From Ilumatobacter nonamiensis YM16-303 (GTDB taxonomy: Bacteria; Actinomycetota; Acidimicrobiia; Acidimicrobiales; Ilumatobacteraceae): 35,404 bases of DNA. Within the stretch, counting starts at the first letter, position 1. Every line of letters begins with the position of its first letter. The notes beneath the pieces are model-generated. The model saw only the letters and a program-made list of their open reading frames with translations, searched no databases and was not told the origin of the DNA. The stretch lies in NCBI RefSeq assembly GCF_000350145.1, contig NZ_BAOL01000130.1, forward strand, positions 1-35,404. The letters run 5' to 3'. Of this stretch, positions 11,408 to 34,207 are shown piece by piece. Position numbers and translations under genes: made by a program.

Positions 11408-11414
11408 GCAGATC

Positions 11415-12743
11415 ATGGTGAACTGGAGTCGCGGTCCGGAGACCGCTGAGTGCGCCGCCGTCGTTCGTGCGGCGATCGAGCAGCGGCATCTGGATGAGGA
11501 CGTGCAGTCGGTGGTCTTCCACGACATGGATCTGTTGTCCCAGCGCTTCGACGCGCTGCGTTCGGCGTTCCCCGTGTCGACCCTGCATGCTGTCGCGATC
11601 AAGGCGAACCCGCTCGTCGAGGTTCTCAAGCACGTCGTCGGGCGTGGCGCCGGGCTCGAGGCGGCGTCGATCGAGGAGGTCGAGATCGCTCTCGCCGCAG
11701 GATGCGACCCGTCTCGGATCGTGTTCGATTCGCCTGCCAAGACAGCGGCTGAGATCTGTCGCGCGCTCGACCTGGGCGTGATGATCAACGCCGACAACGT
11801 CGCCGAACTTCGGCGTTTGGCCGACCTTCGTCGCGCTGACCACCGGTCGGTCATCGGGGTTCGAGTCAATCCGATGGTCGGGGTCGGACGGATCGCGACG
11901 ACGAGCGTTGCCGGCACCGATTCGAAGTTCGGGATTCCTCTCGATCGAGCGCGGGCCGAGCTTCCGGCCCTGCTCGAGGAGATGCCGTGGATCACCGCAC
12001 TGCATGTCCACGTGGGCTCACAAGGATGCAGCCTCGACCAACTTCTCGATTCGGCTGTTGCGATCGAGGCGCTACGCGTGCAGCTCAACGGTGGCCTCGG
12101 AACCGACCGGATCGACGTCGTCGACCTGGGTGGGGGCCTCCCGTCCGTCTACACGTCGACCGACGACGTCATCGCTCCCGATGAGTACGCCAACGCGTTG
12201 CGTCGGCTCGTGCCGTCGTGGTTCGACGGCACGGTGCGTCTCGTCACCGAGTTCGGCCGTGTCCTGCAGGCCCACTGTGGGTGGGCGGTGTCGCGGGTCG
12301 AGTACGTCAAGCGGATCGGCGACGCGCGTCTTGCGGTGGTCCACCTCGGTGCCGACCTCTTGCTTCGCGCGGTGTATCGCCCGGAGGACTGGAGCCACCG
12401 GTTGGCGTCGCTCGATGCGTCCGGCGAGGTGCCGACTGGTGATCCGATCCCGTGGACGGTGGGTGGTCCACTGTGTTTCGCCGGCGACATCATCGGGCGC
12501 GATGTCCCACTCGTCGATGTCCGAGCGGGATCGCTGGTGCTCATCCGGGACATCGGCGCCTACACGATGAGCATGTGGTCACGGCACTGCAGTCGGGGTC
12601 TCCCGCTCGTTCTCGGCCACGCTGCGACCAGCTCCGGCTCGGACCTGAGCGTGATCCGGCGAGCCGAGTCCCCCGGTGATGTCGCTGCGTTCTGGTCGGT
12701 CGACGGTGGACGTGGAGCCTCAGGGCCCGGAGAAGACCACTGA
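11415..12743 (+). CDS. Diaminopimelate/ornithine decarboxylase-like PLP enzyme (fold type III)
   Basis: A 442-residue protein of the LysA family. Conserved points are visible in order: AIKANP with the PLP lysine (Lys63), HVHVGSQ (197-203), the phosphate-binding DLGGGLPS (237-244), TEFGR (278-282, where the family usually has E-P-G-R), C-x-x-x-D in CFAGD (Cys354, Asp358) and GAYTMSM (381-387) carrying the active-site tyrosine. It should decarboxylate a basic or diamino acid, or act on a conjugated derivative as in siderophore and polyamine pathways. The substrate is not readable. Its stop TGA shares one base with the ATG of the first epimerase-ligase (TGATG), so translation is coupled and the product is plausibly a substrate of that enzyme (inference). 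Confidence 0.87.
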   Translation: MVNWSRGPETAECAAVVRAAIEQRHLDEDVQSVVFHDMDLLSQRFDALRSAFPVSTLHAVAIKANPLVEVLKHVVGRGAGLEAASIEEVEIALAAGCDPSRIVFDSPAKTAAEICRALDLGVMINADNVAELRRLADLRRADHRSVIGVRVNPMVGVGRIATTSVAGTDSKFGIPLDRARAELPALLEEMPWITALHVHVGSQGCSLDQLLDSAVAIEALRVQLNGGLGTDRIDVVDLGGGLPSVYTSTDDVIAPDEYANALRRLVPSWFDGTVRLVTEFGRVLQAHCGWAVSRVEYVKRIGDARLAVVHLGADLLLRAVYRPEDWSHRLASLDASGEVPTGDPIPWTVGGPLCFAGDIIGRDVPLVDVRAGSLVLIRDIGAYTMSMWSRHCSRGLPLVLGHAATSSGSDLSVIRRAESPGDVAAFWSVDGGRGASGPGEDH

Positions 12744-15382
12744 TGCAAGGGTGGACTCGGTGGAGAGCGTCGCGGGCCGCCCGCGCGGCGCGAAGCCCGA
12801 GTTCGCAGGTCACGATCGCCGAGGCGCGCGTCCTCGCGTACCGGATGCCACTGAGGAAGGCGTTCGGCACAGCGCGTGGACTGACCAGCCGGAGTCAGAA
12901 CTTCCTGGTCTGGTTCGTGATCCGTGACGAGGCCGGCAACGAATACGAGGGTGTCGGTGAGGGCCAACCGCGCTGGACATTGACCGGTGATTCTCTCGAC
13001 CAGTCGTGGAGCTTTCTCGTGGCTGCCGCGGAGACTGTGGTCGACGACGTACTCGACATCTCCGGTCGAACCGAGGCGGTGGCCTCGGTCCGCCGGACGA
13101 TGCATCGGCTGCACGAACTCGCAGAAGCTCATGCGTCGGCCGAACTCGGTACCCGACCCTTCCGGGGGACCCTGCTCGGCCTCGAGGTTGCACTCCTTGA
13201 TGCGGTTGCGCGCGCGCTCGGGATCCCCCTGCACGAGCTCCTCGGCACTCGACGTCCGACGGTGATCATCACCGCTGACACTCTGAGCACGACCTCGGCG
13301 GTCAACCTCGACGACGAACTGCTCCAGAAGCTCCGCAGCAGAGCGCAGAAATTCGGAGCGGCGCGCCTCAAGGGATTCGGTGATGTCGAGCGGGACGTGG
13401 AGTTGATGCGCACGATCGGTCAGCTGGTGCGGGAGGCCGGACCGGACAACCTGCTGTGGATCGACGAGAACGGTGAACTGGCCGATGACGAAGCAGTCGA
13501 GTTCACCGATCGACTCGTCGACCTCATCCGCGCGGGAGTTCTGCCGCGACGGGTGGTCGTCGAGCAACCGGTCAGTTCGACGTCGGAGCTGCTTCCCGTT
13601 CTCCAGCGTCGAGCCGACAACGCGCTGGACGGTGGCGGGGATCTTCGGATCATGGCGGACGAGCGCATCTGGGATATCGCCGACTTCGGTCCGGTCGTCG
13701 AAGACCATGGCTGTCGTGCGATCAACATCAAGATTCCGAAGGCCGGTGGGTTGCTGGCGGCGCTCGATCTTGCCGAGGCGGCGTCTGCGTCCGACGATGT
13801 GGAGGTCTACATCGGCGGAATGTTGGGCACGAGTGATGTCACCACGTGGACTCTGGTCCATTTGGGGATGGCGATGGCGAGGGTGGACTACATGACGGCG
13901 GTCCCTCCCGCCCAGGTCGAGGCGCGGATCGCGACACCGTTGGCGCGTTACGAGGAGAGGTCGAAGCAGCTTGCGCGACCGGTGGGGGCCGGGTTGGGGA
14001 CGATCGTGGATCGGGTTGCGTTGTTTCCGTATGTGACTCGTGAGCGGTCGTTTCCGTCGCCTCCGTCGCTGGTGTTGCGTGGTGTTCCCGCGAATGACTT
14101 CTCGGCCGAGGCCGATGTGCTGCGGCGCTTCGGTCGAGTGGAACTCGATAGTCATGTGCTCGAGCGGGAGGGGTTGATGCGCGGCCTGGGGTCGCATCGT
14201 CGCTCGCCGATCGATGTGGCGGTGAACGATCGGTCGGGGTTGGAGACGACCTTCAGTTGGTCGAAGTCGTCGATCACGTCTCGGTCGGCGGTGGCGATCA
14301 CGGGGGACAAGGAGTCGACCAGGACGTTCCTGTCGCTGGCGGGGGTACCCACGCCGGTTGGTCGGGTGTTCGCGGTGGGTGACGCGACTTCAGCGGCAGG
14401 GTTCGCGTCGGCGATCGGTTTTCCGGTGGTGGTGAAGCCGGTGGCGGGGACCGGTGGGGTGGGTGTGGTCACGAATCTGAGGAGTGGGGCCGAGGTTCGT
14501 GGTGCGTTCTCTGCGGCGACCGGATCGAAGGCGGCCGCGGACGGGCTGATCGTGGAGCGTCATGTCTCCGGTGGGTCGTTTCGTCTCTTTGTGATCGGTG
14601 GGGAAGTGGTGTCGGCGATCCGTTGGCGGGGCTCGGAGTTGATCGGCGATGGTCGGTCGTCGGTTGTCGAGCTTGCGGGAGTTCGCAACGAGTTCCGGCG
14701 TTCGAATCCGCATCTGATGAATCGGCTGATCAAGTTCGATGCAGTTGCTCGTGGGGTGCTCGATCGCCAGGGTTTGGGTCTTGACTCGGTTCCGGCTGCG
14801 GGACGATCCGTTCCGCTGACGATCCATCCGCAGGGCGGTGAGACCGAGGAGGTCGTCCACGAGTTGCATCCCTCGATTCGTGACACAGCGGTGCGCGCGG
14901 TCGAAGCGGTTCCGGGTTTGGCGTTCTCCGGCATCGACATGATCATCGAGGACCATCGTCGCCCGATTGATTCCCAGAGTTCGGCGGTGGTCGAGGTCAA
15001 CGGCCATCCGGCGCTGACGTCGGCCGAGTATCCGGTTCATGGACCGCGGCACGCGATCGTGGGACGGATCGTCGAGGAGACCGTCGCGCGTGGCGGACTC
15101 GACGCGGCTCCGCGCAGCGACGGCGACATCGCGATGTCGGTGACGGTGCGCGGCTTCTTCGTCGGGCAGCGCTACGAGCGGTGGTTCAGTGAACGCGCTT
15201 CCGAACTCGGGTTGGGTGTTCGGAATCTCCGCGTGCGAGATGGGCGTCTCCGTGCGACGGTCGAGGGGCTGTGCAGTCGGGTGGCGGTTCTGTCGTCGCT
15301 TGCGATCGTCGGACCGTCGGGGGCGACGCCGACGCGGGTGTCCACGCAGCCGCTTGCACGCTCGGCGGGTGGTGTGTCGTGA
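12743..15382 (+). CDS. A1: dipeptide-epimerase-like enolase domain + ATP-grasp ligase + acylphosphatase-like domain
   Basis: An 879-residue fusion. Residues 22-435 are a muconate-lactonizing/dipeptide-epimerase type enolase-superfamily domain with the cap motif MPLRKAFGTARG. All catalytic positions are present: RLK (Lys210), WIDEN (Asp241), VEQP (Glu274), MADE (Asp306) and NIKIPKAGG (Lys330). Residues 455-785 form a GshAB/cyanophycin-synthetase-type ATP-grasp with DKEST (522-526), VVVKP (Lys565), VERH (Glu605), GIDMI (Asp732) and VEVN (Glu751, Asn753). Residues 797-870 match the acylphosphatase fold (VRG...ELGL...RNL), but the position of the catalytic Arg is Glu in FVGQRYER. The expected role is to join amino acids through an acyl phosphate and epimerise the dipeptide. 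The ATG overlaps the decarboxylase stop by one base. From about 13,850 codons become G/T-rich. Confidence 0.86.
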   Translation: MQGWTRWRASRAARAARSPSSQVTIAEARVLAYRMPLRKAFGTARGLTSRSQNFLVWFVIRDEAGNEYEGVGEGQPRWTLTGDSLDQSWSFLVAAAETVVDDVLDISGRTEAVASVRRTMHRLHELAEAHASAELGTRPFRGTLLGLEVALLDAVARALGIPLHELLGTRRPTVIITADTLSTTSAVNLDDELLQKLRSRAQKFGAARLKGFGDVERDVELMRTIGQLVREAGPDNLLWIDENGELADDEAVEFTDRLVDLIRAGVLPRRVVVEQPVSSTSELLPVLQRRADNALDGGGDLRIMADERIWDIADFGPVVEDHGCRAINIKIPKAGGLLAALDLAEAASASDDVEVYIGGMLGTSDVTTWTLVHLGMAMARVDYMTAVPPAQVEARIATPLARYEERSKQLARPVGAGLGTIVDRVALFPYVTRERSFPSPPSLVLRGVPANDFSAEADVLRRFGRVELDSHVLEREGLMRGLGSHRRSPIDVAVNDRSGLETTFSWSKSSITSRSAVAITGDKESTRTFLSLAGVPTPVGRVFAVGDATSAAGFASAIGFPVVVKPVAGTGGVGVVTNLRSGAEVRGAFSAATGSKAAADGLIVERHVSGGSFRLFVIGGEVVSAIRWRGSELIGDGRSSVVELAGVRNEFRRSNPHLMNRLIKFDAVARGVLDRQGLGLDSVPAAGRSVPLTIHPQGGETEEVVHELHPSIRDTAVRAVEAVPGLAFSGIDMIIEDHRRPIDSQSSAVVEVNGHPALTSAEYPVHGPRHAIVGRIVEETVARGGLDAAPRSDGDIAMSVTVRGFFVGQRYERWFSERASELGLGVRNLRVRDGRLRATVEGLCSRVAVLSSLAIVGPSGATPTRVSTQPLARSAGGVS

Positions 15383-16392
15383 GCGCGTTGGACGATGCGG
15401 CCGTCGGGCGGGTTCGATCGGTATGGCCTGGTGCGGTCGGCCCGGTCGGCCGGACTGTCGATTCGATTCTCGTGCACGCAGAATTGGGTGCTCGTGGCGG
15501 GTCGGTGGTGCGTGTCTCGCGCGATGTCGTGGTCGCGTGTCCAGCGGACTCGGAGCCGTTGGCGTTTCAGGGTGCGACGCCGCCGACGACATCGGTGGCA
15601 GGTGACACGGTTTCACGATCGTTGGGGTTGACGTCCCAGACGTGGCGTGATCATGGAGTTGCGACGCCACGGGGTCGCGTTGTCAGGCGTTCGGCACGAC
15701 GAGCCGCCGACCGGTTTCTGCGTCTCACGGACGGCCGGATCGACGTCATCGATGACCGGCTCGGTCAACTGCGGCCACGCGTGCAGATCGAGGCGGTCGA
15801 TGCCGACGCGCTGGACCGGGTATGGGGGTCGTTTCCGGCGAGGAGCATCTATCTCCGGGAACACCACGACGGCAAGCATGTCCATTGCCTCGTGTTCGGT
15901 GGTCGGGCGGTATCGGTGGTGTCTGAGGACGTCGAGCAGTTCGCAGTGTCTGCACTTGGCGCGCTTCCCGCGATCGGGCTGGGATTGGTCGAGGTGCTGC
16001 TCCGGTCCGATGGTGAGGCGATGGCGCTCGCTGTGGATCCGACCCCGGTGATTCACGACGTCCCGCAGTGTGGTGACCTGGTCCGCTCCATCGTCGACGC
16101 AACGGTGGGCGCGGACGGTGCGCACGCGGGTGAGCAGCGCTGTTCCAGTTTCGAGGTCGAGTTGGCGGGAGTCGCGGACGTCGGTGGACTCGTCGACTCG
16201 CTGGTGACCGAGGGCAAGGATCGGTTCGGACTCGGTGTCACGGTCCTGGAGTCGGATCCGATCATGGGGTTCGTTCGTTTCGCGGTGAGCGGCGATTCGC
16301 TCTCCGTCGCGATCCTCGCCGCTGCAGCGACCCACGGGGCGCGGGGCGACGGCCAGCGAGCTGCCTCGGTGCGAACGATCGCGAACGGCTGA
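15379..16392 (+). CDS. P1: ATP-grasp-derived partner protein lacking the ligase core
   Basis: A 337-residue protein. GTG 15379 is inside a GTGA overlap with the stop of A1. Residues 26-110 align by eye with the pre-ATP-grasp part of A1: D-S-I-L-V near 28-32, RVSRDVVVA, then WRDHGVATPRGR, which matches the G-V-P-T-P-x-G-R segment of the ligases. The nucleotide lysine strand (VVVKP) and the metal-binding E-x-N are absent; YLREHHDG (158-165) and ALAVDPTPV (217-224) are relics of the VExHV and EVNxxPA segments. The C-terminal 80 residues (258-334) keep the acylphosphatase-like domain. It is therefore expected not to ligate and more likely to bind the upstream ligase or the growing product. Translational coupling to A1 suggests a fixed stoichiometry. 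Confidence 0.82.
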   Translation: MSALDDAAVGRVRSVWPGAVGPVGRTVDSILVHAELGARGGSVVRVSRDVVVACPADSEPLAFQGATPPTTSVAGDTVSRSLGLTSQTWRDHGVATPRGRVVRRSARRAADRFLRLTDGRIDVIDDRLGQLRPRVQIEAVDADALDRVWGSFPARSIYLREHHDGKHVHCLVFGGRAVSVVSEDVEQFAVSALGALPAIGLGLVEVLLRSDGEAMALAVDPTPVIHDVPQCGDLVRSIVDATVGADGAHAGEQRCSSFEVELAGVADVGGLVDSLVTEGKDRFGLGVTVLESDPIMGFVRFAVSGDSLSVAILAAAATHGARGDGQRAASVRTIANG

Positions 16393-16598
16393 TCCCGTCG
16401 CGTGAGTTCGGTCGTGGAGATGACGACGAGATTCGCGGTGTCGGCGCGTACCCTGCGTGGGCGTGGCCCGACGTTACAGTCTCAGAATTCGCTCGTACTC
16501 GGACCGTCGGTCATGACAGCGATGTCACCGAGTGGTGCCGTTGGCGTCTCGGGTTCTCGAGATCATGTCGTGTCCGATGAGCGAGAGGAGTTCGAGCG

Positions 16599-19445
16599 AT
16601 GAAGTCGCACACGTGGAGTCGGGCGCTGGCGTATGCGCGGAGGGTGCGCTCGAAAGCGACGCGTCTGATTCGATCGCGCGTTCCCGCCCAGACGATGCAC
16701 CATGCGCGCCGGGTGCGTTCGAAGGTGGCACGTTCGATGAGGACACCGTTGCCGGCTCGGGCGTCGAGGTTCGCTCGCCGGGTGCGTTCGAAAGTGGCGC
16801 GTTCGATGATCGGCGTGCGTCGGCGCTGGACGGTGTTCCGCAACGAACGTTCCGAGCGTGCTGCCCGGGCGCGACGCACACAGCTCACGATCGTTCGTAC
16901 GCATGTCGCGTGGTATCGAATGCCGTTGAAGTGGGCTTTCGGAACGGCGCGGGGCATGACGCGTCGAAGTCAGAACTTCCTGGTGTGGGTGCATCTGCAT
17001 GACGCCGCGGGGATCGAGTTCGTCGGTGTCGGTGAGGGCCAACCGCGTGGAGCTCTGACGGGCGACTCGATGGCCGCGTCCTGGGACTTCCTGGGCACAG
17101 CCGCCGACTCGTTGGTCGACGTGGTTCTGGACACCGCTGATCCCACTGCGGCGGTCGAATCGGTGCGGGACACGATGAGCATGCTGCGGACGCTGGCCGA
17201 TGATCACGCCGAGCCCGGCCTGGGCGCTCAGCCCTATCGCGGCACGTTGCTGGGGATCGAAGTCGCCCTTCTCGATGCGGTGTCGCAGGCTCTGGGCCTC
17301 GCGCTCCACGAGTTGTTGGGAACTCACCGATCCGAGGTGTTCGTCTCCTCGGACACGTTGAGCACGGTCTCGGGTGCGAACCTCGATGATGAGTTCCGTC
17401 GGAAGGTTCGCAACCGTGCGGAGCGTTTCGGTGCGGTGCGCATCAAGGGCTTCGGAGACGTCGAGCGCGATCTTCGTCTGCTACGAGCGGTCGGCGACCA
17501 GTTGGGCGAGATGAGTCGCGACAACATTCTGTGGATCGATCAGAACTGTGGTTTGTCCGATGGCGAGGCCGACCACTTCGTCGACGAGGTGGCGAAATCG
17601 ATGTGCGATGGAGCGTTGCCACGAAAGGTGATCATCGAACAGCCCGTCGGTGCTTCGTCGGATCGATTGCCCGATCTCCAACGACGGGCGGATCGAGCGG
17701 TCGCGGAGCACGGTGATCTTCGAATCATGCCCGACGAGAGCATCGCGAGCGCGGCGGACTTCGACCGAGTCGTCGGGGCCGATGGCTGTCGTGCGATCAA
17801 CATCAAGGCGCCCAAGGCCGGTGGGTTGCTGGCGTCGCTCGAACTCGCGAAGACGGCGGCCGGCAAGAGTGATGTCGAGGTCTACATCGGAGGAATGCTG
17901 GGCACGAGCGACATCACGTCGTGGACTCTGGTCCATCTGGGGATGGCACTCGAGCGACTCGACTACCTGAGTGCGGTACTACCGGCACAGGTCGAACGTC
18001 GCATCGCATCCCCGCGCGCAGGGTATGAGCCGGGGACGCGACAGCTGCGTTCCCCTCGTGGAACGGGCCTCGGCGCGGTGGTCGATCGTGCGGCGATCCT
18101 CCCGTACATCGCACACGAGGTCTGGTCGCCGAGGGGGCCAGCGTTCACGCTCCGTGGCGAGCTTCCGAACGACTACTCCGATGCAGCGGACAAGCTCCGT
18201 GGATTCGATCCGATCGCCATGGACAGTCACGTCCTGGAGAGGGAGGCGCTGCTCCGTGGGCTCGGGAGTCGTCGCTACTCGATCAAGGACGTCACGTTCA
18301 ACGACCCTGCGGACCGGTCCGCTGCCTTCTGCTGGTCGAGGTCTCCGCTGACCTCGCGAGCGGCCGCGGCGATGACGATCGACAAGGAGGCCTCACGGAG
18401 GCTCCTGTCGCGCGCCGGCGTTCCCACGCCACGAGGTCGGGTCTTCCCGCTCGGCAGCGCTCCGGAAGCCGCTGAGTACGCAGCGACGATCGGTTTCCCG
18501 GTGGTGGTCAAACCGGTGGCCGGAACCGCTGGCATCGGCGTCATGACCGATCTCCGGAACAGGGCCGAAGTCGAAGAAGCGTTCGCGACGATCAGACCCG
18601 GCCCAGCCACCGCTCAAGGTCTGATCGTCGAGTCCCATGTCCGCGGAGACTCCTATCGCATCTTCGTTCTCGACGACGAGGTCATCTCCGCGATCCGTTG
18701 GCGAGGAGCGGAACTCACCGGTGACGGTCAGCTCACGGTGGGCGAACTCGCAGCGCTCCGGAACGACGTACGACGAACCAATCCGCATCTCCTGAATCGA
18801 TTGGTCAAGCTCAACCGTGCCGCGCGCCGGGCCCTCGAACGTCAGGGTCTCGACATCGAATCTGTTCCCCGCGCGGGCGAGGTGGTGCAGCTTGCCCCCA
18901 ACCCTCAGGGCGGCGATACCGAAGAAGTTCTCGATCAGTTGCACCCCTCGATCCACCAGGCCGCAGTTCGCGCAGTCGCCGCGATCCCCGGGCTCGGGTA
19001 CTCCGGGTTGGACGTGATCCTGGAGGACCCCCGTGTTGCCATCGACGATCAGAGTGCAGCGGTCCTGGAACTCAACGCCTCGCCGGCACTGACATCGGCG
19101 GAGTATCCGGTCCACGGCCCTCGTCATCCGACCGTGGGACGGATCGTCGAGGCTGCGATCGCGCATGGTGGGCTCGTTGCCCGACCACGGTCGGAGGACT
19201 CGATCACGGCGTCGCTCGAGGTTCACGGCTACCTCAACGGTGATGCCTATGGGCGATGGTTGAGCAGGCGGGCCGACGAGCTCGGCGTCACCGTGAGCCT
19301 GGAGGAGTGCAGCGGGCGGCTCGTCCGCTCCAGGATCGCGGGGGCTGCTGTCGACCTTGCCATCGTCGCCTCCGAGGCCATCGTCGGGCCGAATGGTTCG
19401 TCGCCGACGCGGGTGTCGACCCAGCCGATCGGGGCCCAGCGATGA
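16599..19445 (+). CDS. A2: epimerase-ligase with basic repeated N-terminus
   Basis: A 948-residue relative of A1. The start is clear: GAGAGGAG lies a few bases ahead of ATG 16599. Residues 13-70 hold three basic 23-residue repeats, and the enolase domain starts near 95. Catalytic set: RIK (Lys283), WIDQN (Asp314), IEQP (Glu347), PDES (Asp379), NIKAPKAGG (Lys403). ATP-grasp set: VVVKP (Lys638), VESH (Glu678), GLDVI (Asp805), LELN (Glu824, Asn826). The acylphosphatase-like tail runs from about 870 to 943 with Gly at the catalytic Arg position (GDAYGRW). A 206-base gap separates it from P1, the largest in the array, and holds no convincing promoter, though one may be needed there. The ATGA overlap at its end couples it to the P2/B1 fusion. 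Confidence 0.86.
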   Translation: MKSHTWSRALAYARRVRSKATRLIRSRVPAQTMHHARRVRSKVARSMRTPLPARASRFARRVRSKVARSMIGVRRRWTVFRNERSERAARARRTQLTIVRTHVAWYRMPLKWAFGTARGMTRRSQNFLVWVHLHDAAGIEFVGVGEGQPRGALTGDSMAASWDFLGTAADSLVDVVLDTADPTAAVESVRDTMSMLRTLADDHAEPGLGAQPYRGTLLGIEVALLDAVSQALGLALHELLGTHRSEVFVSSDTLSTVSGANLDDEFRRKVRNRAERFGAVRIKGFGDVERDLRLLRAVGDQLGEMSRDNILWIDQNCGLSDGEADHFVDEVAKSMCDGALPRKVIIEQPVGASSDRLPDLQRRADRAVAEHGDLRIMPDESIASAADFDRVVGADGCRAINIKAPKAGGLLASLELAKTAAGKSDVEVYIGGMLGTSDITSWTLVHLGMALERLDYLSAVLPAQVERRIASPRAGYEPGTRQLRSPRGTGLGAVVDRAAILPYIAHEVWSPRGPAFTLRGELPNDYSDAADKLRGFDPIAMDSHVLEREALLRGLGSRRYSIKDVTFNDPADRSAAFCWSRSPLTSRAAAAMTIDKEASRRLLSRAGVPTPRGRVFPLGSAPEAAEYAATIGFPVVVKPVAGTAGIGVMTDLRNRAEVEEAFATIRPGPATAQGLIVESHVRGDSYRIFVLDDEVISAIRWRGAELTGDGQLTVGELAALRNDVRRTNPHLLNRLVKLNRAARRALERQGLDIESVPRAGEVVQLAPNPQGGDTEEVLDQLHPSIHQAAVRAVAAIPGLGYSGLDVILEDPRVAIDDQSAAVLELNASPALTSAEYPVHGPRHPTVGRIVEAAIAHGGLVARPRSEDSITASLEVHGYLNGDAYGRWLSRRADELGVTVSLEECSGRLVRSRIAGAAVDLAIVASEAIVGPNGSSPTRVSTQPIGAQR
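16635..16808 (+). repeat. Three in-frame 69-bp (23-residue) basic repeats at the A2 N-terminus
   Basis: Units start at 16635, 16704 and 16773, exactly 69 bases apart, each opening with ARRVRSK. The second and third share ARRVRSKVARSM. The third unit diverges after 12 residues. The repeats are rich in Arg and Lys spaced as in an amphipathic helix. They could bind membrane phospholipid, an acidic polymer or a partner protein. None of the other A or B proteins has this extension. Confidence 0.8.
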
Positions 19446-23134: not shown

Positions 23135-24156
23135 GTGTGACGACCGACCCGCTCGTGCAGCACGCGCGTTCCGTGTGGCCGGGCGACCGTGGCCCGTCGG
23201 GTCGCACGCTCGACTCGATTCTGGCCCATGGCGACCTGGCCGGGCGTGGCCTCGAGGTGCATCGAATTGCGCGCGACGTCGTTGTCACCACAACGCTGAG
23301 CGGCGCGCCCGTCGCCTTTCAGGGGACGGTTCCGCCTGCGGTCTCCCTCGCCGGAAACTCCGTGTCGCGATCACTTGCCTTGACGACGTCGATGTGGCGT
23401 GATCGAGGGGTTGCGACGCCACACGGGCGAGCGCTCCAGGCGTCGGCGCTTCCGGTCGCGCTGCGCTTCTTTCGTGCGACCGATCGAGGGGTCGAACTGG
23501 TGGACGATCGCCTCGGCTACGGGTCGGGTCGCCGATCGGTCACGGTCCTCGAACAGGATCGCTTGGAAGCGGCGATGACCGAGCGTCCGACTTCGCCGCT
23601 GTTCATCCGGGAGCATCTGGACGGGAACCGCTTCGGGTGCGTCGTGCACGGTGATCGCGTCGTGGGCACCACCGGCTCGTCCGCGCTGGTCGATGCGACC
23701 GTCGCAACCCTGGCAGCCGAAGCGCTCGCAGCGTTGCCCGCCATGAACCTGGGTCGTATCGAGGTGCTCGTGCGCCCGACCGGCGAGGTCCTGGCCCTCT
23801 CGGCCGACCCCGCCCCGGTGGTCAGTCGGCTCGCTGATGCATCCGGCATCGCGCGTCACATCATCGACGAGGTCCTGGGATCCCGAGCTGCGGATCACCT
23901 CGTCGATCAGCCATTCGATGCCGAGTTCGTCGGGATGTCCGACGCCGTCGGTTTCGCGGAGTGTCTGGAGACCGCGGCATCCGAATCGTTTGCGGTGGAT
24001 GTGTCGATCGCGGCGGTCGACCCGGTCCATGGCAGCGTCCGCTTGGCGGCGTCGGCCGAACCCGGACATCTCGCGGTGCTCGCAGCCGCGGCGACGGCCG
24101 GAGTCCTCGGTCGCCATCATCGCTGTACCGCCGTGAGTACCAGGCGAGCGACCTGA
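23131..24156 (+). CDS. P3: ATP-grasp-derived partner protein lacking the ligase core
   Basis: A 341-residue protein whose ATG 23131 sits in an ATGA overlap with the stop of P2-B1. The layout is that of P1: SVWPG at 14-18, LDSILAH, IARDVVV, WRDRGVATPHGR, FIREHLDG and a C-terminal acylphosphatase-like part from about 260 that ends in CTAVSTRRA. There is no nucleotide-binding lysine strand and no E-x-N metal site. The N-terminus before W-P is the same length as in P1, which supports the chosen start. Like the other P proteins it is expected to be a non-catalytic subunit or product-binding protein. About 115 bases follow before the secreted-protein gene. Confidence 0.82.
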   Translation: MSVTTDPLVQHARSVWPGDRGPSGRTLDSILAHGDLAGRGLEVHRIARDVVVTTTLSGAPVAFQGTVPPAVSLAGNSVSRSLALTTSMWRDRGVATPHGRALQASALPVALRFFRATDRGVELVDDRLGYGSGRRSVTVLEQDRLEAAMTERPTSPLFIREHLDGNRFGCVVHGDRVVGTTGSSALVDATVATLAAEALAALPAMNLGRIEVLVRPTGEVLALSADPAPVVSRLADASGIARHIIDEVLGSRAADHLVDQPFDAEFVGMSDAVGFAECLETAASESFAVDVSIAAVDPVHGSVRLAASAEPGHLAVLAAAATAGVLGRHHRCTAVSTRRAT

Positions 24157-24191
24157 CGCTCGACGATCGATTCGACGCCGCAGCGCAGATT

Positions 24192-24220
24192 TTGTGAGCA
24201 CGGTCGCGATCGGTCATTCT
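24192..24220 (+). promoter_or_regulatory. Candidate promoter ahead of the secreted-protein gene
   Basis: TTGTGA (24192-24197) and CATTCT (24215-24220) are separated by 17 bases and stand about 50 bases before ATG 24272. The match to the -35/-10 consensus is only partial. It lies in one of the few real gaps of the array, where an internal promoter would make sense. Confidence 0.25.
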
Positions 24221-24271
24221 GTGACGGTCGCCACGACGAGAAGTCCGTCGGGCCACCCGAGAAGGACGACC

Positions 24272-24730: not shown

Positions 24731-24767
24731 CATCGGCCCCGTCGGTGTTCGCGAGGGCCACGTACCG

Positions 24768-27410
24768 GTGAAGACACGTCTCTCATTGATCGACGGCGTG
24801 CTGGGCATCGGTTCGCGCGACCGCACGGTCCTGACCGTCGTCGCAACGAAGATCGTCTGGTACCAGATGCCGTTCACGAAGGCGTTCGGCACATCTCGAG
24901 GCGTTGTTCGTGGGAGTCGGAACTTCCTGGTGTGGGTGCGCGCCTGCGATGGGGACGGGAACGAGTTTGAGGGCATTGGGGAGGGCCAACCCCGTGGAGC
25001 TCTGACCGGGGATGCCATGGAGGTTTCGTGGAGGTTCCTCGAGGCTGCCACCGAGCGGTTGGTCGGTACTCGCCTCGATGCGACGAACCCGTCCAGCGCA
25101 ATCCGGTCGGTGCGGCGGGCCATGGGTGGACTCGAGAGCGTCCGATCAGACCATGCGGTGCCTGATCTGGGACACCGTCCGTTCTGCGGCACGGTGCTCG
25201 GCATCGAGGTCGCGTTGCTCGATCTCGTGTCGCGTGCGCAGGGTCGTGCGCTCCACGAAGTACTCGGCACGCAGCGCCCGGTCGTGCCCATCGTGACCCA
25301 GACGCTCAGCACGGTCACCGTGCGCCAACTCTCTGATCGTTTCCTTCGACGGGTGCGACGCCACGCCGAGAAATACGGCGCGATTCGGCTCAAGGGTTTC
25401 GGCGACGTCGAACGAGATCTGAAACTGCTCGCGGCCGTCGGGCAGGAACTGGAGGACCTCGGCCGCGACACGGTGGTGTGGATCGATCAGAACGGTGGGC
25501 TGTCCGACGAACAGGCGGGCGTGTTCATCGACCGTCTTGCTGCACTCATGCGTGACGGTTCACTCCCGCATCGCCTGATCCTGGAACAGCCGGTCAGTTC
25601 GAGTTCGTCGATGCTCCCGACCCTGCAGCGGCAGGCCGATGCGGTCGTCGCCGCCCCCGGCGATCTGCGAGTGATGGCGGACGAGAGCCTCTGGGAGGTC
25701 GCCGACTACAAGCAGGTCGCAGGTCGGCGCGGGTGTCGGGCGATCAACATCAAGACACCGAAGACCGGCGGACTGCTCGCAGCACTCGACCTCGTGAATC
25801 TGGCCGCGAAGTCCGGCGATGTGCAGGTGTACATCGGAGGGATGTTGGGCGCGAGTGACATCACGACCTGGACACACATCCATCTCGCGATGGCGGCTCG
25901 GCGAATCGACTACTCCACCGCCGTTCCACCCGTTCAGGTCGAGCAGAGGTTCGTCCGACCGCTCGCCAGGTTCGAAGCGGAGGCCACGAGGTTGTCGGTT
26001 CCCGAAGGACATGGGCTGGGCGCCGTTGTCGATGCCGCGCAACTGTTGCCGTACATCGTCCGGCAGGCCATGTCTCCGCCCGCCGAACCCCTGCTGCTGG
26101 CCGGACGGACCCCGAACGACTACTCCGACATCGTCGCGGGCGTGCGGAGGTTCGGTCGCTACAGCCTCGACAGCCACGTGCTCGAACGCGAAGCGATCCA
26201 ACGCGGGCTCGGAACCCACCGGATCTCGCCGATCGAGCTGTCGGTCGACGACGCTGCGGGTCGTTGTGCAGGCTTCAGTTGGTCGAAGTCCGTCCTGACA
26301 TCGCGTTCTGCTGGAGCGATGACCGTCGACAAGGAATCCACCCGTACGTTGTTGAGCCGTGCCGGAGTACCGACACCCGCAGGGAGGTCGTTCTCGCTCG
26401 ACGACTCGAGTGGAGCGGAGGAGTATGCGGACTCGATCGGATTCCCGGTCGTCGTGAAGCCGGTTGCCGGTACCGGGGGCCGAGGCGTGTTCACCGAGCT
26501 CCGAAGTCGCGAGGATGTGCGCGAAGCTTTCGCCAAGGCGGCCGCGTCGGCCGACGTGCGCCACGGCCTGATCGTCGAGACGCACGTCGCCGGCGACTCG
26601 TATCGCGTCTTCGTGATCGGCGATGAGGTCATCTCCGCGATTCGTTGGCACGGGACTGTGCTCGTCGGCGACGGGCGATCGACCGTCGCCGAACTCGCGA
26701 GCGCCCGAAATTCCTTTCGCCGAACCAGTCCCTATCTCTCGCACCGGTTGGCGAAGTTCGACGTGGCGGGTCTGGAGGCGCTCGCCCGGCAGGGCATCGG
26801 CCCGGACTCGGTTCCCGCACAGGCGCAGCGCGTCGAGTTGACACTCCACCCACAGGGTGGCGAGAACGAGGAAGTCGTCCACGAAATGCATCCGTCGATC
26901 AAACGGATCGCGGTCAACGCACTCAGGGCGATCCCGGGACTGGCCTACTCCGGAATCGACATCATCGCGCAGGATCATCGTGAACCCGCGCAATCCCAGA
27001 ACGTGTCCGTCATCGAACTGAACTCCAGCCCAGCGCTCACCTCCGCGGAATACCCGGCGCTCGGTCCCCGTCACCCGGTGGCAGGTCGCATCATCGAAGA
27101 GTGCATCGAGCGCGTCGGGCTCGATGCCACTCCGCTCGACAGCGGATCGATTGAGGTCGTGCTGACCGTCAACGGATTCTTTGTCGGCGGCGAATATCGA
27201 GCGTGGGTTGCGGATCGCGCGACCGAGCTCGAGATCGAGGTGTGCGACGTGCGCTCCGCGCACGGATCGTATGCGGCAACGGTCGCCGGTCGTTCGAGCG
27301 ACCTCGCGATCCTGGCATCTCACGCGATCATCGGCCCGCCCGACGCACGGCCCACGCGAGTGTCGACCGTGCCGGTTCGATGGATGACTGCGAAGGATCA
27401 GCAGTGCTGA
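24768..27410 (+). CDS. A3: dipeptide-epimerase-like enolase domain + ATP-grasp ligase + acylphosphatase-like domain
   Basis: An 880-residue A-type protein. The frame runs back into the secreted-protein gene, so GTG 24768, in the 37-base gap after that gene, is taken as start; GAGGG lies about 11 bases upstream. Enolase set: RLK (Lys209), WIDQN (Asp240), LEQP (Glu273), MADES (Asp305), NIKTPKTGG (Lys329) and YIGGML, all complete. The ATP-grasp keeps DKEST, VVVKP with TGGRG, VETHV, GIDII and IELNSSPALTSAEYP. In the C-terminal acylphosphatase-like domain the position of the catalytic Arg is Arg (FFVGGEYRAW), unlike A1 and A2, but the partner Asn is not seen. It is predicted active for both ligation and epimerisation. 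B2 starts 13 bases after its stop. Confidence 0.85.
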   Translation: MKTRLSLIDGVLGIGSRDRTVLTVVATKIVWYQMPFTKAFGTSRGVVRGSRNFLVWVRACDGDGNEFEGIGEGQPRGALTGDAMEVSWRFLEAATERLVGTRLDATNPSSAIRSVRRAMGGLESVRSDHAVPDLGHRPFCGTVLGIEVALLDLVSRAQGRALHEVLGTQRPVVPIVTQTLSTVTVRQLSDRFLRRVRRHAEKYGAIRLKGFGDVERDLKLLAAVGQELEDLGRDTVVWIDQNGGLSDEQAGVFIDRLAALMRDGSLPHRLILEQPVSSSSSMLPTLQRQADAVVAAPGDLRVMADESLWEVADYKQVAGRRGCRAINIKTPKTGGLLAALDLVNLAAKSGDVQVYIGGMLGASDITTWTHIHLAMAARRIDYSTAVPPVQVEQRFVRPLARFEAEATRLSVPEGHGLGAVVDAAQLLPYIVRQAMSPPAEPLLLAGRTPNDYSDIVAGVRRFGRYSLDSHVLEREAIQRGLGTHRISPIELSVDDAAGRCAGFSWSKSVLTSRSAGAMTVDKESTRTLLSRAGVPTPAGRSFSLDDSSGAEEYADSIGFPVVVKPVAGTGGRGVFTELRSREDVREAFAKAAASADVRHGLIVETHVAGDSYRVFVIGDEVISAIRWHGTVLVGDGRSTVAELASARNSFRRTSPYLSHRLAKFDVAGLEALARQGIGPDSVPAQAQRVELTLHPQGGENEEVVHEMHPSIKRIAVNALRAIPGLAYSGIDIIAQDHREPAQSQNVSVIELNSSPALTSAEYPALGPRHPVAGRIIEECIERVGLDATPLDSGSIEVVLTVNGFFVGGEYRAWVADRATELEIEVCDVRSAHGSYAATVAGRSSDLAILASHAIIGPPDARPTRVSTVPVRWMTAKDQQC

Positions 27411-27423
27411 CCGAGCACAACGC

Positions 27424-30069
27424 GTGCAGGCGTTGAGCGCGATGGCCTTCGGACGACGCAGGAGCAAGGCGGTGGCGCAAGGTGCTTCGATACCGCGATC
27501 TGGCTCCGATACGACCACGCGAGTTTCGGCCATCGTGGAGATTCATGTCGTCGAGTACGCAGCGCACGGCGGACCCGCCGCGCGCGGTTCGTCGATCTCA
27601 TCCAACGTGCTCGTCTGGGTCCGGATCCGAGATGACGCCGGCGCGGAGTACGTCGGCGTCGGTGAAGGTCTGCCGAGTTTGGATCTCCCGGGCACCGGGC
27701 CCGGCGCGGCGTGGAGATTTCTGGAGGCTGCAGCCGACGCCCTCCTTGGACGGGTGGTCGATCTGACCGGCCCGACCCTTGCGGTCGAGTCGGTACGCGA
27801 GGTACTGGCCGCTCTCGATCTGGTGGCGGCGGCTCATGCACCGGCCGGGGTCGGACCGGGCGCATTCCGGGGTTCCAGACTCGGCGTCGAGGCGGCGCTG
27901 CTCGACGTTGCCGCTCGGGGCCTCGATCGTCCGCTGTGCGCCCTGCTCGGCCAGCGGCGTTCCACCGTGACGGTCCCGGCGGTCCGGGTCGACGGAGCGG
28001 ACCCGTCGAGCGCGTGGGGGGAGCGGATCGAGAATTGCTCGTCCGATACCGGGGTGATCCGCATCGAGGGAGTCGGCGAACCGGAGTCGGACGCGGCGCT
28101 CGTTCGGGATGTCGGCGGACGAATACGGTCTGCGGGTCTCGCTCACGCCCTCCATGTCGTCGAAGGCGGTCGCTTGTCCGACGCCGACGCGTGCGTGTTC
28201 ATCGATCTCATCGCTGCACTGATTCGCGATGGGTCGATTCCGGCCGCCGTCGTGGTCCATGAGCCGGTCGGTGCCGAGTCGACGGTTCTGCCGGATCTCC
28301 AGCGTCGGGCTGATCGGGCGCTCGGCGGCCACGGCGACCTGCGGATCGCGACCACCGCGTCGACTCCGCCGGACGCTGGATCGAAGTGGTCCCACCGCCG
28401 TCGTCGTGGTTGCCGTGCCATCAGCATCGCGCCCCACCTGGTGGGCGGATACATGGCGGCGCTGAACCTGGCATCGGAGGATGCAGCCGGGAACGACCGT
28501 GAGGTCAGTTTGGCGTTCCCGACAGCGGGAGGCGACATCGCGTTCCGGATGCACCTTCACCTCGGTGTGTCGATGCCGCGCCTCGATCTGTTGTCCACGG
28601 CGCGCAGTGGAGGTGACGACCAGGGGATCGCGAGGCCTGGTCCCGAGCACCGGGCCGACTCGCAACACCTCGCGCCTCCATCGGGAGTCGGGTTGGGCGC
28701 CCACGTCGACTGGGCGACTCTGCTGCCGCGCGTGATTCGTGAGATGCGATTCCCGGCCGCCGAACCGCTGATCGTGAACGGCTTCGCGCCGAACGACTAT
28801 TCCGCCGAATCCGACGGACTCCGTCGTTTCGGTCGGGACGGTCTCGACAGCCACATTCTCGAACGTGAAGCGCTGGCGCGCGGTCTGCGAACAATACGCC
28901 TCTCGCGGATCGCACTGACGATCGACGACGCTTCGGGACGGAGCGTGACCTTTCACCGGGCCGAGTCGACGTCGAGCGCCAAGTCCGCTGCTGCGATCAG
29001 CGGGCACAAAGAGAGCACGCGGGTGCTTCTCGAACGAGCCGGTGTTCCGACTCCCGCAGGAAGGACCTTCGGGAGAGACAGCGCCGCCGAAGCCCAGGAG
29101 TACGCCGCAGAGATCGGCTTCCCGGTCGTGGTCAAGCCGGTCGCCGGGTGGGGCGGCCGGGGCGTTGCCACCAACCTGCGCGATCGAGCGGCCGTCGCCG
29201 AGGCATTCGTGTCTGCCGCCGGTAGTGCGGGGAGCGAGGCAGGACTGATCGTCGAAAAGCACATCGAAGGCGGGTCGTATCGAGTCTTCGTCCTCGGCGG
29301 TCGGGTCGTGTCGGCGCTGCGCAGACAGGGCTCGGTCCTGTACGGCGACGGACGACGAACGGTGGCCGAACTCGCCGGGATCCGCAACTCGTTCCGGCGG
29401 ACGAATCCGTATCTCCTGAATCGCCTCGTCAAGTTCGACGACGCCCTCGCGGATCTCCTTGATCGACAGGGTTTCGATGCCCACTCGATCCCCGATCGAG
29501 ACGTACCCGTGCACCTCACGCTCCATCAGCAATCCGGTGAAACCGAAGAGATGCTCGAACGATTCCACCCCTCGCTCCGCGAGATTGCGGAGCGAGCAGG
29601 TTCGGCAATCCCCGGACTCGAGTTCTCGGGGTTGGACATGATCATCGAGGACCCGTGCGCCGCCATCGAGACACAGAGCGCGGCGATCATCGAGGTGAAC
29701 AGCCGGCCGACGCTGACGTCTGCCGAGTTCGTTGCCTACGGGCCGCGTCATCCGATCGTGGGCAGGTACCTCGATTGGTGCCTCTCCGGCCGGGGGATCG
29801 ACCCGGGCGTACCGAGTGATGCGGCCATGACTGCCTCCCTGACGGTCCACGGGTTCTTCAGGGCAGTCGGCTACCGCGACTGGATCACGCACCAGTGCCG
29901 TGAACTCGACATCGAACTCACCGTGACGGACTCCGGTCCTGGCTACTTTCGCGCGACGATCGGTGGCCCCGTCGATCAGATTGCGATCATCGCATCCATT
30001 GCGATCGTGGGTCCGCCCGGAGCGGTACCCTCGCGTGTTTCCACCGAGCCGATCGGAGGCCGATTCTGA
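27424..30069 (+). CDS. B2: pseudo-epimerase domain + intact ATP-grasp ligase + acylphosphatase-like domain
   Basis: An 881-residue protein from GTG 27424; ATG 27442 is an alternative and neither has a strong ribosome site. The enolase-like domain (about 34-440) has lost most of its active site: Lys is Glu215 (RIEG), Asp is Val246, the DE pair is Thr-Ala (IATTAS, 308-313) and the last Lys is Ala336 (SIAPHL). Glu280 in HEPV is kept. YIGGML of the A proteins is replaced by LAFPTAGG. The ATP-grasp is complete: VVVKP (Lys571), VEKH (Glu611), GLDMI (Asp738), IEVNSRP (Glu757, Asn759). It shares with B1 the segments KPxAGWGGxG and RQGSVLYGDG, where the A proteins have KPVAGTxGxG and RWxGxxL, so A and B differ in ligase substrate pocket too. 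The acylphosphatase-like tail keeps Arg (AVGYRDW). Confidence 0.84.
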   Translation: MQALSAMAFGRRRSKAVAQGASIPRSGSDTTTRVSAIVEIHVVEYAAHGGPAARGSSISSNVLVWVRIRDDAGAEYVGVGEGLPSLDLPGTGPGAAWRFLEAAADALLGRVVDLTGPTLAVESVREVLAALDLVAAAHAPAGVGPGAFRGSRLGVEAALLDVAARGLDRPLCALLGQRRSTVTVPAVRVDGADPSSAWGERIENCSSDTGVIRIEGVGEPESDAALVRDVGGRIRSAGLAHALHVVEGGRLSDADACVFIDLIAALIRDGSIPAAVVVHEPVGAESTVLPDLQRRADRALGGHGDLRIATTASTPPDAGSKWSHRRRRGCRAISIAPHLVGGYMAALNLASEDAAGNDREVSLAFPTAGGDIAFRMHLHLGVSMPRLDLLSTARSGGDDQGIARPGPEHRADSQHLAPPSGVGLGAHVDWATLLPRVIREMRFPAAEPLIVNGFAPNDYSAESDGLRRFGRDGLDSHILEREALARGLRTIRLSRIALTIDDASGRSVTFHRAESTSSAKSAAAISGHKESTRVLLERAGVPTPAGRTFGRDSAAEAQEYAAEIGFPVVVKPVAGWGGRGVATNLRDRAAVAEAFVSAAGSAGSEAGLIVEKHIEGGSYRVFVLGGRVVSALRRQGSVLYGDGRRTVAELAGIRNSFRRTNPYLLNRLVKFDDALADLLDRQGFDAHSIPDRDVPVHLTLHQQSGETEEMLERFHPSLREIAERAGSAIPGLEFSGLDMIIEDPCAAIETQSAAIIEVNSRPTLTSAEFVAYGPRHPIVGRYLDWCLSGRGIDPGVPSDAAMTASLTVHGFFRAVGYRDWITHQCRELDIELTVTDSGPGYFRATIGGPVDQIAIIASIAIVGPPGAVPSRVSTEPIGGRF

Positions 30070-31100
30070 GTTCGCCAGAAGACAACCGGGTGCGACATGT
30101 GCCCTCCACCTGGCCATCCGCCGGATCGCCGACCGGACGGGCCGCCGACTCGGTTCTGGTCCATGCCGAGTTGACACGACGTGGCTTCGAGGCATTGCGC
30201 CTCTCGAGAGACGTGGTCGTTGCCGGCGCCGCAGACCGTTCGTCCGTCGCATTTCAAGGTGCAGTGCCGCCGACCGTCTCGCTCGCGGGGATGTCGATCG
30301 CACAATCGATCACCTTGACATCGTCGATGTGGCGCGATCGCGGAATCGCAACACCGCGTGGCCGCGTCCTGCGGACGTCGGCGGGGCTTGCCGCTCGCCG
30401 GTTCTTGGGGTCGACCGATCACGGGGTGGACCTCGTGGACGAGGTGACCACCGGACATCGCCCCCGCGGAGTGACGACGGTCGAGACCGAAACGGCCTTG
30501 GCCGATGCGCTCGGGTCATGCTCTGCAGCCCGGGTGTACGTTCGTGAACACCTCGACGGTGCCCTCGCCGCATGTCTCGTGGATCGCGACCGAGTCGTCC
30601 ACGCGATCGCCATCGACGGCACGGTGACGAGCGTCGGAGCGAAGGGAGCGGCCGTCGCTGTCGCCGCACTCGAGGCGCTCCCCGCGATGGAACTCGGGCA
30701 AATCGACCTCCTGATCCTCCCCGACGGCGAGGCGATGGCCCTTGCGGCCGAACCGGCCCCTGTCGTCAGCCGTGGGCCAGGAGGGATCGACCTGGTCGGA
30801 CGGCTCGTCGATCGCGCGGTCGGCGGCTCGACGTCGGATCGGGTGGCGGAGACTCCGTTCGCGATCGAACTCGCCGGGCTGTCGGATTCTGTCGGCCTGG
30901 CGGAGTCGATCGACGAGGATGACGCCGATCGGTTCGGACTCGGAATCTCGGTGACGTCCGTGGACCCCGTTCGTGGCGTCCTGCGAGTGGTGGCGACGGG
31001 CAGCTCCGATGGCATCGCCCTCCTCGCGCACGCTGCGACCGCCGGAGCGTTTGGTGACCGGCGGCGATGTTCCTCGGTGAGGACCAGTCCGGTTTCCTGA
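30066..31100 (+). CDS. P4: ATP-grasp-derived partner protein lacking the ligase core, probable CTG start
   Basis: A 344-residue protein of P type (ADSVLVH, LSRDVVVA, WRDRGIATPRGR, YVREHLDG, acylphosphatase-like end at about 262-340). The first standard start is GTG 30090, but reading from CTG 30066 gives a 4-base CTGA overlap with the stop of B2. It also gives exactly the same distance to the W-P motif (Trp16) as in P1 (GTGA) and P3 (ATGA), and Ser at position 2 as in both. I therefore annotate the CTG; if it is wrong the protein is 8 residues shorter. The nucleotide lysine and E-x-N metal ligands are absent. It is the last gene of the + strand run, and its stop lies inside a hairpin. Confidence 0.78.
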   Translation: MSSPEDNRVRHVPSTWPSAGSPTGRAADSVLVHAELTRRGFEALRLSRDVVVAGAADRSSVAFQGAVPPTVSLAGMSIAQSITLTSSMWRDRGIATPRGRVLRTSAGLAARRFLGSTDHGVDLVDEVTTGHRPRGVTTVETETALADALGSCSAARVYVREHLDGALAACLVDRDRVVHAIAIDGTVTSVGAKGAAVAVAALEALPAMELGQIDLLILPDGEAMALAAEPAPVVSRGPGGIDLVGRLVDRAVGGSTSDRVAETPFAIELAGLSDSVGLAESIDEDDADRFGLGISVTSVDPVRGVLRVVATGSSDGIALLAHAATAGAFGDRRRCSSVRTSPVS

Positions 31101-33327: not shown

Positions 33328-33328
33328 G

Positions 33329-34171: not shown

Positions 34172-34207
34172 TCCCCCGAGGCTATCCACGGCAGTAGATT
34201 CGGGAAC

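Follow-up and report, generated by a model that had tools for sequence, protein, structure and literature searches.

D-amino acids reach peptides through free racemases, through the epimerisation domains of nonribosomal peptide synthetases (NRPS) and through epimerases acting on ribosomally synthesised and post-translationally modified peptides. For polymers made by amide ligation a rule has been drawn in a review of poly-gamma-glutamate, according to which neither Mur-type nor ATP-grasp amide ligases can isomerise residues, so that D-residues must derive from free D-amino acids (PMC3815933; this and the other papers cited by PMC number are represented here by excerpts). In the loci described below, ligases of both these types are joined to an epimerase-like domain that retains its catalytic residues. 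Teichuronopeptide, the poly-gamma-L-glutamate and polyglucuronate wall polymer of an alkaliphile, is described in the excerpt with no epimerase fusion (PMC8153356), and in the capsule of Campylobacter jejuni a TupA-like ATP-grasp enzyme amidates glucuronic acid to glucuronamides (PMC11800379). Here we analyse contig NZ_BAOL01000130.1 of Ilumatobacter nonamiensis YM16-303 (35,404 nt, hereafter the window; the genome assembly totals 4.28 Mb over 399 contigs), which encodes five proteins, A1 to A5, that carry an ATP-grasp ligase and an enolase-superfamily, epimerase-like domain on one chain.

This pairing, put forward in an initial annotation made from the DNA sequence alone, is borne out, and parallel fusions of the same enolase clade occur in relatives. 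There the clade is joined to CphA-like ATP-grasp domains, to a MurF-like ligase in Ruania, to PGA_cap plus ATP-grasp in Phytoactinopolyspora and in a metagenome-assembled genome (MAG) named Rhodobacteraceae and, in degenerate form, to a TupA-like ATP-grasp domain in Haloechinothrix. Because one clade recurs in all of these fusions, ligation and epimerisation look functionally linked. The reading that we prefer, to which we give slightly less than an even chance (about 0.45) on the strength of sequence comparison and structure models, is that the ligase-epimerases build the peptide portion, with D- and L-residues, of an anionic polymer that is exported to the cell surface, is probably linked to sugar and resembles teichuronopeptide.

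Ligase and epimerase-like domains of the A proteins

Five enolase-type/ATP-grasp fusions had been counted in the initial annotation, and five long open reading frames (ORFs) at 12743-30069 encode them in a common domain order: enolase-type, CphA-like ATP-grasp and acylphosphatase-like. A1, A2 and A4 score above the cut-off of Pfam family MR_MLE_C (29.4 bits), which A3 (25.9 bits) and A5 (20.8) do not reach. Long frames with this family are rare, a by-eye count over the window's genome and 59 relatives giving 4 of 137 matches in open frames of at least 850 aa; three of these are A1, A2 and A4, and the fourth is from a genome (G019) with no match to A1 at E 1e-20. The kinship of the ligase with CphA and GshAB was also confirmed, as the closest NCBIfam models are cyanophycin synthetase, NAGGN synthetase and GshAB (A1, the B2-A3 fusion and A4 scanned). 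The cya_phycin_syn model scored 160.8 bits against an equivalog cut-off of 850, with the match confined to the ATP-grasp domain and no other CphA parts present. The ATP-grasp active site is intact in A1-A5 at 14 of 14 checked positions, which were picked from an alignment of the A proteins. As for the acylphosphatase-like C-terminal part, PF00708 is reached only in relatives (L047, E 1.6e-11) and not in the window proteins. The Arg and Asn that we take to be the acylphosphatase catalytic pair occur together in none of the five A proteins; A4 and A5 have the Arg only, and many relatives keep both.

A2-A5 are 45-57% identical to A1, a divergence on which we rejected assembly duplicates or artefact as the source of the copies, and G+C content at codon position 3 is 0.75-0.77 across all five.

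The catalytic residues expected of an epimerase are present in part of the set. When A1 is compared with the L-Ala-D/L-Glu epimerase (AEE) of Bacillus subtilis (1jpm), counterparts of K162, D191, E219, D244 and K268 are found and K160 is replaced by Arg. In YkfB, K162 and K268 lie on either side of the epimerised carbon (PMC5808125). The Asp/Glu/Asp ligands with a Lys on both sides that mark the MLE subgroup of the enolase superfamily occur in A1, A2 and A4 and not in A3 and A5, where both the catalytic lysines and the majority of the metal ligands are gone. The catalytic residues first claimed for all five therefore stand in three, and the further idea that every A protein inverts its residue finds no support, two of the five having a dead epimerase domain. 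Loss is common in the wider family: of 30 related enolase domains tabulated, the set is kept in 12 of the 29 that are full-length and lost in 17, with one partial, and among 20 A-type proteins (the window's five included) the enolase domain is dead in 15. The 15 proteins that pair a dead enolase domain with a CphA-like ATP-grasp domain keep all 14 ligase positions in 13 cases and differ at one position in the other two. This retention, together with the identity of A1 and A3 (57% in the ATP-grasp and 38% in the enolase domain; A1 and A2 share 60% in each), suggests that the ligase is apparently under stronger constraint than the epimerase.

Which epimerase the intact domains most resemble is less clear-cut. 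The label dipeptide-epimerase-like holds as to fold and lysines, but A1 is equally close to N-acylamino-acid racemases and lacks the DxD motif, which we take to be the element of dipeptide epimerases that binds the N-terminus of the dipeptide. In all 12 full-length domains with an intact set the second Asp of DxD is missing, with some uncertainty in the register of that alignment column, and K160 is Arg; A1 reads DYMTAV about where the dipeptide epimerase 3q45 reads DFDTP. The NCBIfam model for L-Ala-D/L-Glu epimerase (NF041118) gave 39.1 bits for the A1 enolase domain against a cut-off of 500, and higher scores came from the N-acetyl-D-Glu racemase DgcA (54.0 bits) and muconate cycloisomerase (66.4). 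Predicting the structure of A1, which the initial annotation had named as a check, gave an AlphaFold model (20 sequences; pLDDT 89.3, pTM 0.85) that matches the enolase fold over residues 23-438 and CphA as well: Foldseek returned 3q45 at E 4.3e-23 and CphA2 (7ta5) at E 8.2e-22. In VIA-align over residues 23-438, the N-succinyl-Arg/Lys racemase 2p88 (Z 43.2, root-mean-square deviation (rmsd) 2.2, 365 residues) and 3q45 (Z 42.8, rmsd 2.3, 366 residues) are tied; the VIA-align rows for A1 span residues 21-439, and the other A1 domains rest on Foldseek and sequence. Accordingly, the predicted fold fails to separate a peptide epimerase from an N-acylamino-acid racemase.

Four partner proteins, B1-B4, had been described between the A proteins. 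There are four copies, between or after the A genes, of which B2 proves to form the front of the A3 protein. The B proteins are paralogues of the ATP-grasp and acylphosphatase-like parts of A, degenerate and without the ATP site. In a profile comparison it aligns in one run with the corresponding two parts of A (E 4e-6, probability 87). ATP-site residues are lost in B3 and B4, B1 and B2 barely align to the ATP-grasp profile, and the alignments of all four window B proteins contain no KP or ExN element; B proteins of relatives retain KP and E..R elements. We had considered a novel fold and set it aside on the model of B4 (Table 1), which matches ATP-grasp enzymes, namely CphA (7wac, E 1.6e-10) and D-Ala-D-Ala ligase (3r5f, Z 17.8, rmsd 3.4, 222 residues). 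The start codons of B1, B2 and B3 each overlap the stop codon of the A gene upstream, within GTGA or ATGA.

A domain of the same degenerate type, ATP-grasp plus acylphosphatase-like, forms the tail of the ATPase of a putative ATP-binding cassette (ABC) exporter in the window. Such a tail was not seen in the permease-adjacent ATPases of six other loci (254-291 aa). The C-terminal domain of Wzt reads the polymer to be exported, and by analogy the tail here may read the peptide product or substrate.

Related loci and gene neighbourhoods

A first scan of genome contigs with A2 as query and two scans of viral contigs found no relative. A second genome scan, for which a 79-aa sub-alignment of the enolase domain was used, gave 12 loci, of which 11 were kept, all in named genomes: Phytoactinopolyspora (3), Ruania (3), Haloechinothrix (2) and MAGs named Nitriliruptoraceae, Micromonosporaceae and Rhodobacteraceae. 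Several of these carry halophile or alkaliphile names. The locus dropped (L058, Desulfarculaceae) showed 37% identity over 51 aa in a 353-aa protein without ATP-grasp and is an ordinary enolase. The distribution is patchy, since the locus was found in none of nine same-genus genomes searched. Scoring up to nine candidates per genome in a set of 99 that included the window's own, we obtained a match to enolase plus ATP-grasp at E 1e-20 in that one genome alone, and three others match in the ATP-grasp part only. Within the phylum, 26 out of 396 genomes gave a match at E 1e-25, and only those of the window's own genome, G426 and G459 extend past the ATP-grasp part, on two candidates scored per genome, so that others can be missed; contig L036 of G426 is the reverse complement of the Nitriliruptoraceae contig L051. 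Among 72,556 plasmid records 41 match, none over 80% of the query, and the 15 matches listed fall around the ATP-grasp part, 13 of them being annotated as cyanophycin synthetase. Outside the core loci described below there are a further A protein (G495:C12:729104-731674) and a second enolase-TupA fusion (G503:C33:29396-31822), both with a dead enolase domain.

In a tree of the enolase domains, from which the one partial row is omitted and in which two rows with very long branches are of unsure placement, the five window A proteins group as a single set (100/100) in which A3 and A5 are sisters (100/100). The multiple copies represent a lineage-specific expansion. Fusions with MurF and with PGA_cap/TupA cluster together (99/96), and the tree requires no fewer than three switches between the intact and the dead state. 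The fused Mur ligase of relatives is MurF-like, with no PgsB/CapB model listed for it.

PGA_cap domains fused to or adjoining ligases occur at L047:9083-12733, L051:4398-5483 and L038:7942-10275. For a related PGA_cap domain (L072) the only matches in the PDB are structures of the lasso-peptide epimerase MslH (8gq9, E 4.6e-7), and two related PGA_cap proteins give weak matches to the NCBIfam MslH model (43 and 64 bits against a cut-off of 700). MslH epimerises the C-terminal Trp of a lasso peptide in a metal-dependent reaction that uses His/Asp pairs (PMC10406935). As a lead, PGA_cap may here be a second, unrelated type of epimerase that serves the same ligases.

Seven core loci were read widely, six from named genomes and one from G459. 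Genes for ATPgrasp_ST, an AsnS-like protein, an Asp/Glu-type racemase and a UDP-sugar dehydrogenase are each present in all seven, although the dehydrogenase of G459 is weak (E 1.4e-33) and lies about 6 kb past the exporter genes. An adjacent ABC permease and ATPase occur in six of seven, the pair being missing in Palk_C2, whose contig begins there. Homologues of the probable glycosyltransferase o7573 are found in six and a GT4 protein in five; double CphA-like ATP-grasp homologues are also found in five, and not in Plim_C2 and Nitr459. The racemase gene directly adjoins an A gene with a dead enolase domain in every one of the seven loci, as if free D-residues from the racemase replaced that domain. 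The second locus of Phytoactinopolyspora halotolerans is of another type, with A-B-A-B-A-B beside a PAPS reductase, an o9581-like protein and a pyridoxal phosphate (PLP) decarboxylase, and the window combines both types (Table 1).

Table 1. Coding features of the window with positions, strands and the basis of each assignment.
Feature	Position	Strand	Basis and remarks
PAPS-reductase-like protein	88..861	+	PF01507 E 5.9e-38; NCBIfam phosphoadenylyl-sulfate reductase 212 bits, cut-off 154
Nucleotide-sugar epimerase/dehydratase-like protein of short-chain dehydrogenase/reductase (SDR) type	863..1780	+	PF01370 E 1.5e-29; no listed NCBIfam model above cut-off
CphA-like double ATP-grasp protein	1795..3933	+	C-terminal copy keeps 12/14 checked positions; N-terminal copy degenerate
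ATPgrasp_ST (sugar-transfer-associated ATP-grasp)	3950..5218	-	PF14397 E 5.5e-36
Asparagine-synthase-like (AsnS-like) amide-forming enzyme	5331..6974	+	PF00733 E 1.6e-6
Probable glycosyltransferase (o7573)	7573..9738	+	E-x7-E, which we take to be a GT4-like motif; no Pfam family above cut-off
PLP-enzyme-like protein	9803..11407	+	TGSKFFGGPPF and VVVDAAQ conserved in 3 homologues, presumably fold type I motifs, the sole basis of the name; no Pfam match
LysA-like PLP decarboxylase	11127..12743	+	PF02784 E 1.4e-37; lysA model 203.5 bits, cut-off 297.9; real start probably downstream of 11127
A1	12743..15382	+	Intact epimerase domain, ATP-grasp ligase, acylphosphatase-like domain
B1	15379..16392	+	Degenerate ATP-grasp and acylphosphatase-like partner; GTGA overlap with A1 stop
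A2	16599..19445	+	Intact epimerase domain, ATP-grasp ligase, acylphosphatase-like domain
B2-A3 fusion	19442..23134	+	One ORF: B-type domain, dead epimerase domain, intact ATP-grasp, acylphosphatase-like domain
B3	23131..24156	+	Degenerate ATP-grasp partner; ATGA overlap with A3 stop
A4	24768..27410	+	Intact epimerase domain, ATP-grasp ligase, acylphosphatase-like domain; start probably near 24768 instead of 24552
A5	27424..30069	+	Dead epimerase domain, intact ATP-grasp ligase, acylphosphatase-like domain
B4	30090..31100	+	Degenerate ATP-grasp partner; model pLDDT 86.1, ATP-grasp fold, site residues lost
TagH/Wzt-like ABC ATPase with degenerate ATP-grasp and acylphosphatase-like tail	31126..33327	-	TagH- and Wzt-type models 154-159 bits, under cut-offs of 320-538
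ABC-2 (Wzm-like) permease	33329..34549	-	PF01061 E 1.2e-5, slightly below Pfam cut-off
GT4-type glycosyltransferase	33998..35374 (listed ORF)	+	Start probably near 34207; PF13692 E 2.1e-15

Between B3 and A4 lies a small ORF (24194-24730) with an N-terminus that by eye resembles a signal peptide and with no Pfam match. A tRNA-Arg (ccg) reported by ARAGORN on the minus strand at 26166-26244, inside the A4 coding sequence, was taken as a probable chance call.

Homologues of the window's PAPS reductase adjoin A/B genes in Phal_C65 and Palk_C1. The PAPS reductase, the PLP-enzyme-like protein and the PLP decarboxylase, the last two from unrelated families, travel together in the window, at L070:4837-9040 and at G497:C1:482706-486861. 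The Asp/Glu-type racemase of L047 scores above the NCBI cut-off for cysteate racemase (229 versus 190 bits). That a sulfonated monomer such as cysteate or taurine is involved is a mere speculation.

A proposed route and its alternatives

We infer the activities, the order and direction of the steps, the substrate and the product from the domains, residues, neighbours and homologues that sequence and models reveal. According to the model, the ATP-grasp domain of an A protein would phosphorylate a carboxylate and couple the activated acid to an amine. CphA extends its chain at the C-terminus, and the chain here would probably be lengthened at the same end, leaving the new residue with a free alpha-carboxylate that could chelate Mg2+ in the fused enolase-type domain. 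In A1, A2 and A4 the alpha-proton would then be removed and returned between the two lysines, interconverting the L- and D-forms of the new residue, while A3 and A5 would act as ligases that retain just the shell of an epimerase domain. B is probably a non-catalytic scaffold, a regulator of the ligases or a substrate holder. The CphA-like, ATPgrasp_ST and AsnS-like enzymes and the glycosyltransferases would be partners in polymer synthesis, and the ABC exporter (31126-34549) would carry the completed peptide-sugar unit to the cell surface. The neighbour genes of the core loci favour a surface polymer that is exported over a free peptide product, and the fusion of the window's own exporter ATPase to a pseudo-ligase domain also speaks for polymer export.

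Several observations count against this route. The predominance of dead enolase domains among A-type proteins suggests that epimerisation is not essential to the ligase, and the intact domains themselves lack DxD, on our assumption about that motif, and have Arg at K160. ATP-grasp enzymes generally phosphorylate the donor carboxyl and it is Mur-type ligases that activate the chain end (PMC3815933); with donor activation the carboxylate of the added residue would no longer be free, so that epimerisation would have to precede ligation or act on a residue linked through its side chain. Contrary to the idea that a racemase replaces the dead domain, 8 of the 15 dead-enolase A proteins lack an adjoining racemase gene within the region read: A3 and A5 of the window, three proteins of Phal_C65 and a single one in each of Palk_C1, Plim_C12 and Plim_C2 (219431-222010). 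Among the window proteins scanned there is no UDP-sugar dehydrogenase, Asp/Glu racemase, PGA_cap or TupA domain, an absence that may be due to the end of the contig at 35404. Finally, the UDP-sugar dehydrogenase L071 scores higher with the UDP-ManNAc dehydrogenase model (265.9 bits) than with TuaD (114.9), both below cut-off, and the sugar may for this reason be other than glucuronate.

The same genes could serve a secreted small peptide, a metallophore or antibiotic made by an ordered ligase-epimerase series and exported by the ABC transporter. Several non-identical ligases, three of them with intact epimerase domains, would suit such a product, as would an AsnS-like protein that weakly resembles macrolactam cyclases (37.8 bits, cut-off 300) and a LysA-like decarboxylase that might provide a building block. 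However, the grouping of the A copies as one set fits dosage or substrate variants equally well, and the core loci combine UDP-sugar dehydrogenase, glycosyltransferases, ATPgrasp_ST and an ABC exporter, the window's ATPase being TagH/Wzt-like, as is typical of surface-polymer loci. In addition, the window proteins scanned contain no adenylation, carrier or condensation family of Pfam and no thioesterase domain; an NRPS was rejected on this basis, and the ordered, NRPS-like assembly line of the initial annotation is not upheld, given the single set and the missing carrier. We regard a small peptide as unlikely.

Similar, very slightly better odds attach to a different role for the enolase domain, which might racemise N-acylamino acids or carry out another reaction of the MLE subgroup (cycloisomerisation or beta-elimination) and so supply or trim a monomer; we consider this rather unlikely. 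The higher scores of the DgcA and muconate cycloisomerase models, the tie in fold between N-succinylamino-acid racemase (NSAR) structures and dipeptide epimerase and the missing DxD, if that motif is as we assume, all lean towards it. Its difficulty is that the enolase domain is fused to amide ligases of two unrelated folds, ATP-grasp and Mur, as fits an amide-linked substrate, and that the two-lysine set for alpha-proton transfer is intact. The resemblance of the ATP-grasp domain to NAGGN synthetase, the AsnS-like neighbour and the halophile or alkaliphile names of relatives would be in keeping with an intracellular or periplasmic oligopeptide osmolyte for salt stress, made as by NAGGN synthetase, but the exporter, glycosyltransferase and UDP-sugar dehydrogenase genes of the core loci would be superfluous for it, and we think such an osmolyte very improbable.

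Beyond the D/L-peptide polymer of this window, a broader proposal can be made tentatively, as something that falls well short of even odds: one enolase clade, joined to two unrelated ligase folds, could act as a general ligase-coupled epimerase that makes D-residues on the nascent chain in surface polyamides, with a racemase or an MslH-like PGA_cap domain perhaps replacing it where it is dead. If true, this would contradict the rule that amide-ligation polymers obtain D-residues from free D-amino acids. If active, such single proteins of about 880 residues would add another general way for D-amino acids to enter peptides, and could be put to use in ligase-based peptide synthesis. The loci also single out specific genes as candidates for making surface polymers that contain peptide in Actinomycetota, and the names of several source organisms suggest halophiles or alkaliphiles.

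Comparison with known systems

No description of an enolase-ligase fusion was found in the titles and abstracts that searches of the open-access literature returned, though an earlier prediction may exist, as relevant papers lay outside that search. With CphA, NAGGN synthetase and GshAB the A proteins share the ATP-grasp subfamily and its active-site set; they differ from CphA in being fused to enolase and acylphosphatase-like domains and in matching none of its other parts. A1 shares its fold with N-succinylamino-acid racemases of the MLE subgroup, and A1, A2 and A4 share the Asp/Glu/Asp ligands and both lysines, whereas K160 is Arg, DxD (presumed, as above, to be the relevant motif) is missing, the domain is ligase-fused, and A3 and A5 are dead.

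Teichuronopeptide synthesis (TupA) and the ATP-grasp capsule amidases of the Cj1438 kind have in common with this locus amide ligation beside sugar-polymer genes, and in Haloechinothrix a TupA-like ATP-grasp domain even shares one chain with a degenerate enolase domain from the window's clade, although TupA does not occur among the window proteins scanned. The PgsBCA/CapBCA poly-gamma-glutamate synthases share PGA_cap with related loci; a canonical synthase of this kind was rejected for the window, whose scanned proteins include no Mur-type ligase or PGA_cap family.

The chemistry proposed here has a parallel in a penicillin cascade in which ligation by the ATP-grasp enzyme TabS is followed by enolase-type epimerisation by a Thermotoga maritima enzyme to give an L,D-dipeptide (PMC13338154). 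That cascade is man-made from stand-alone enzymes, whereas the A proteins are natural fusions. Such a fusion would, if the proposal is true, be a new way to put D-amino acids into surface polymers.

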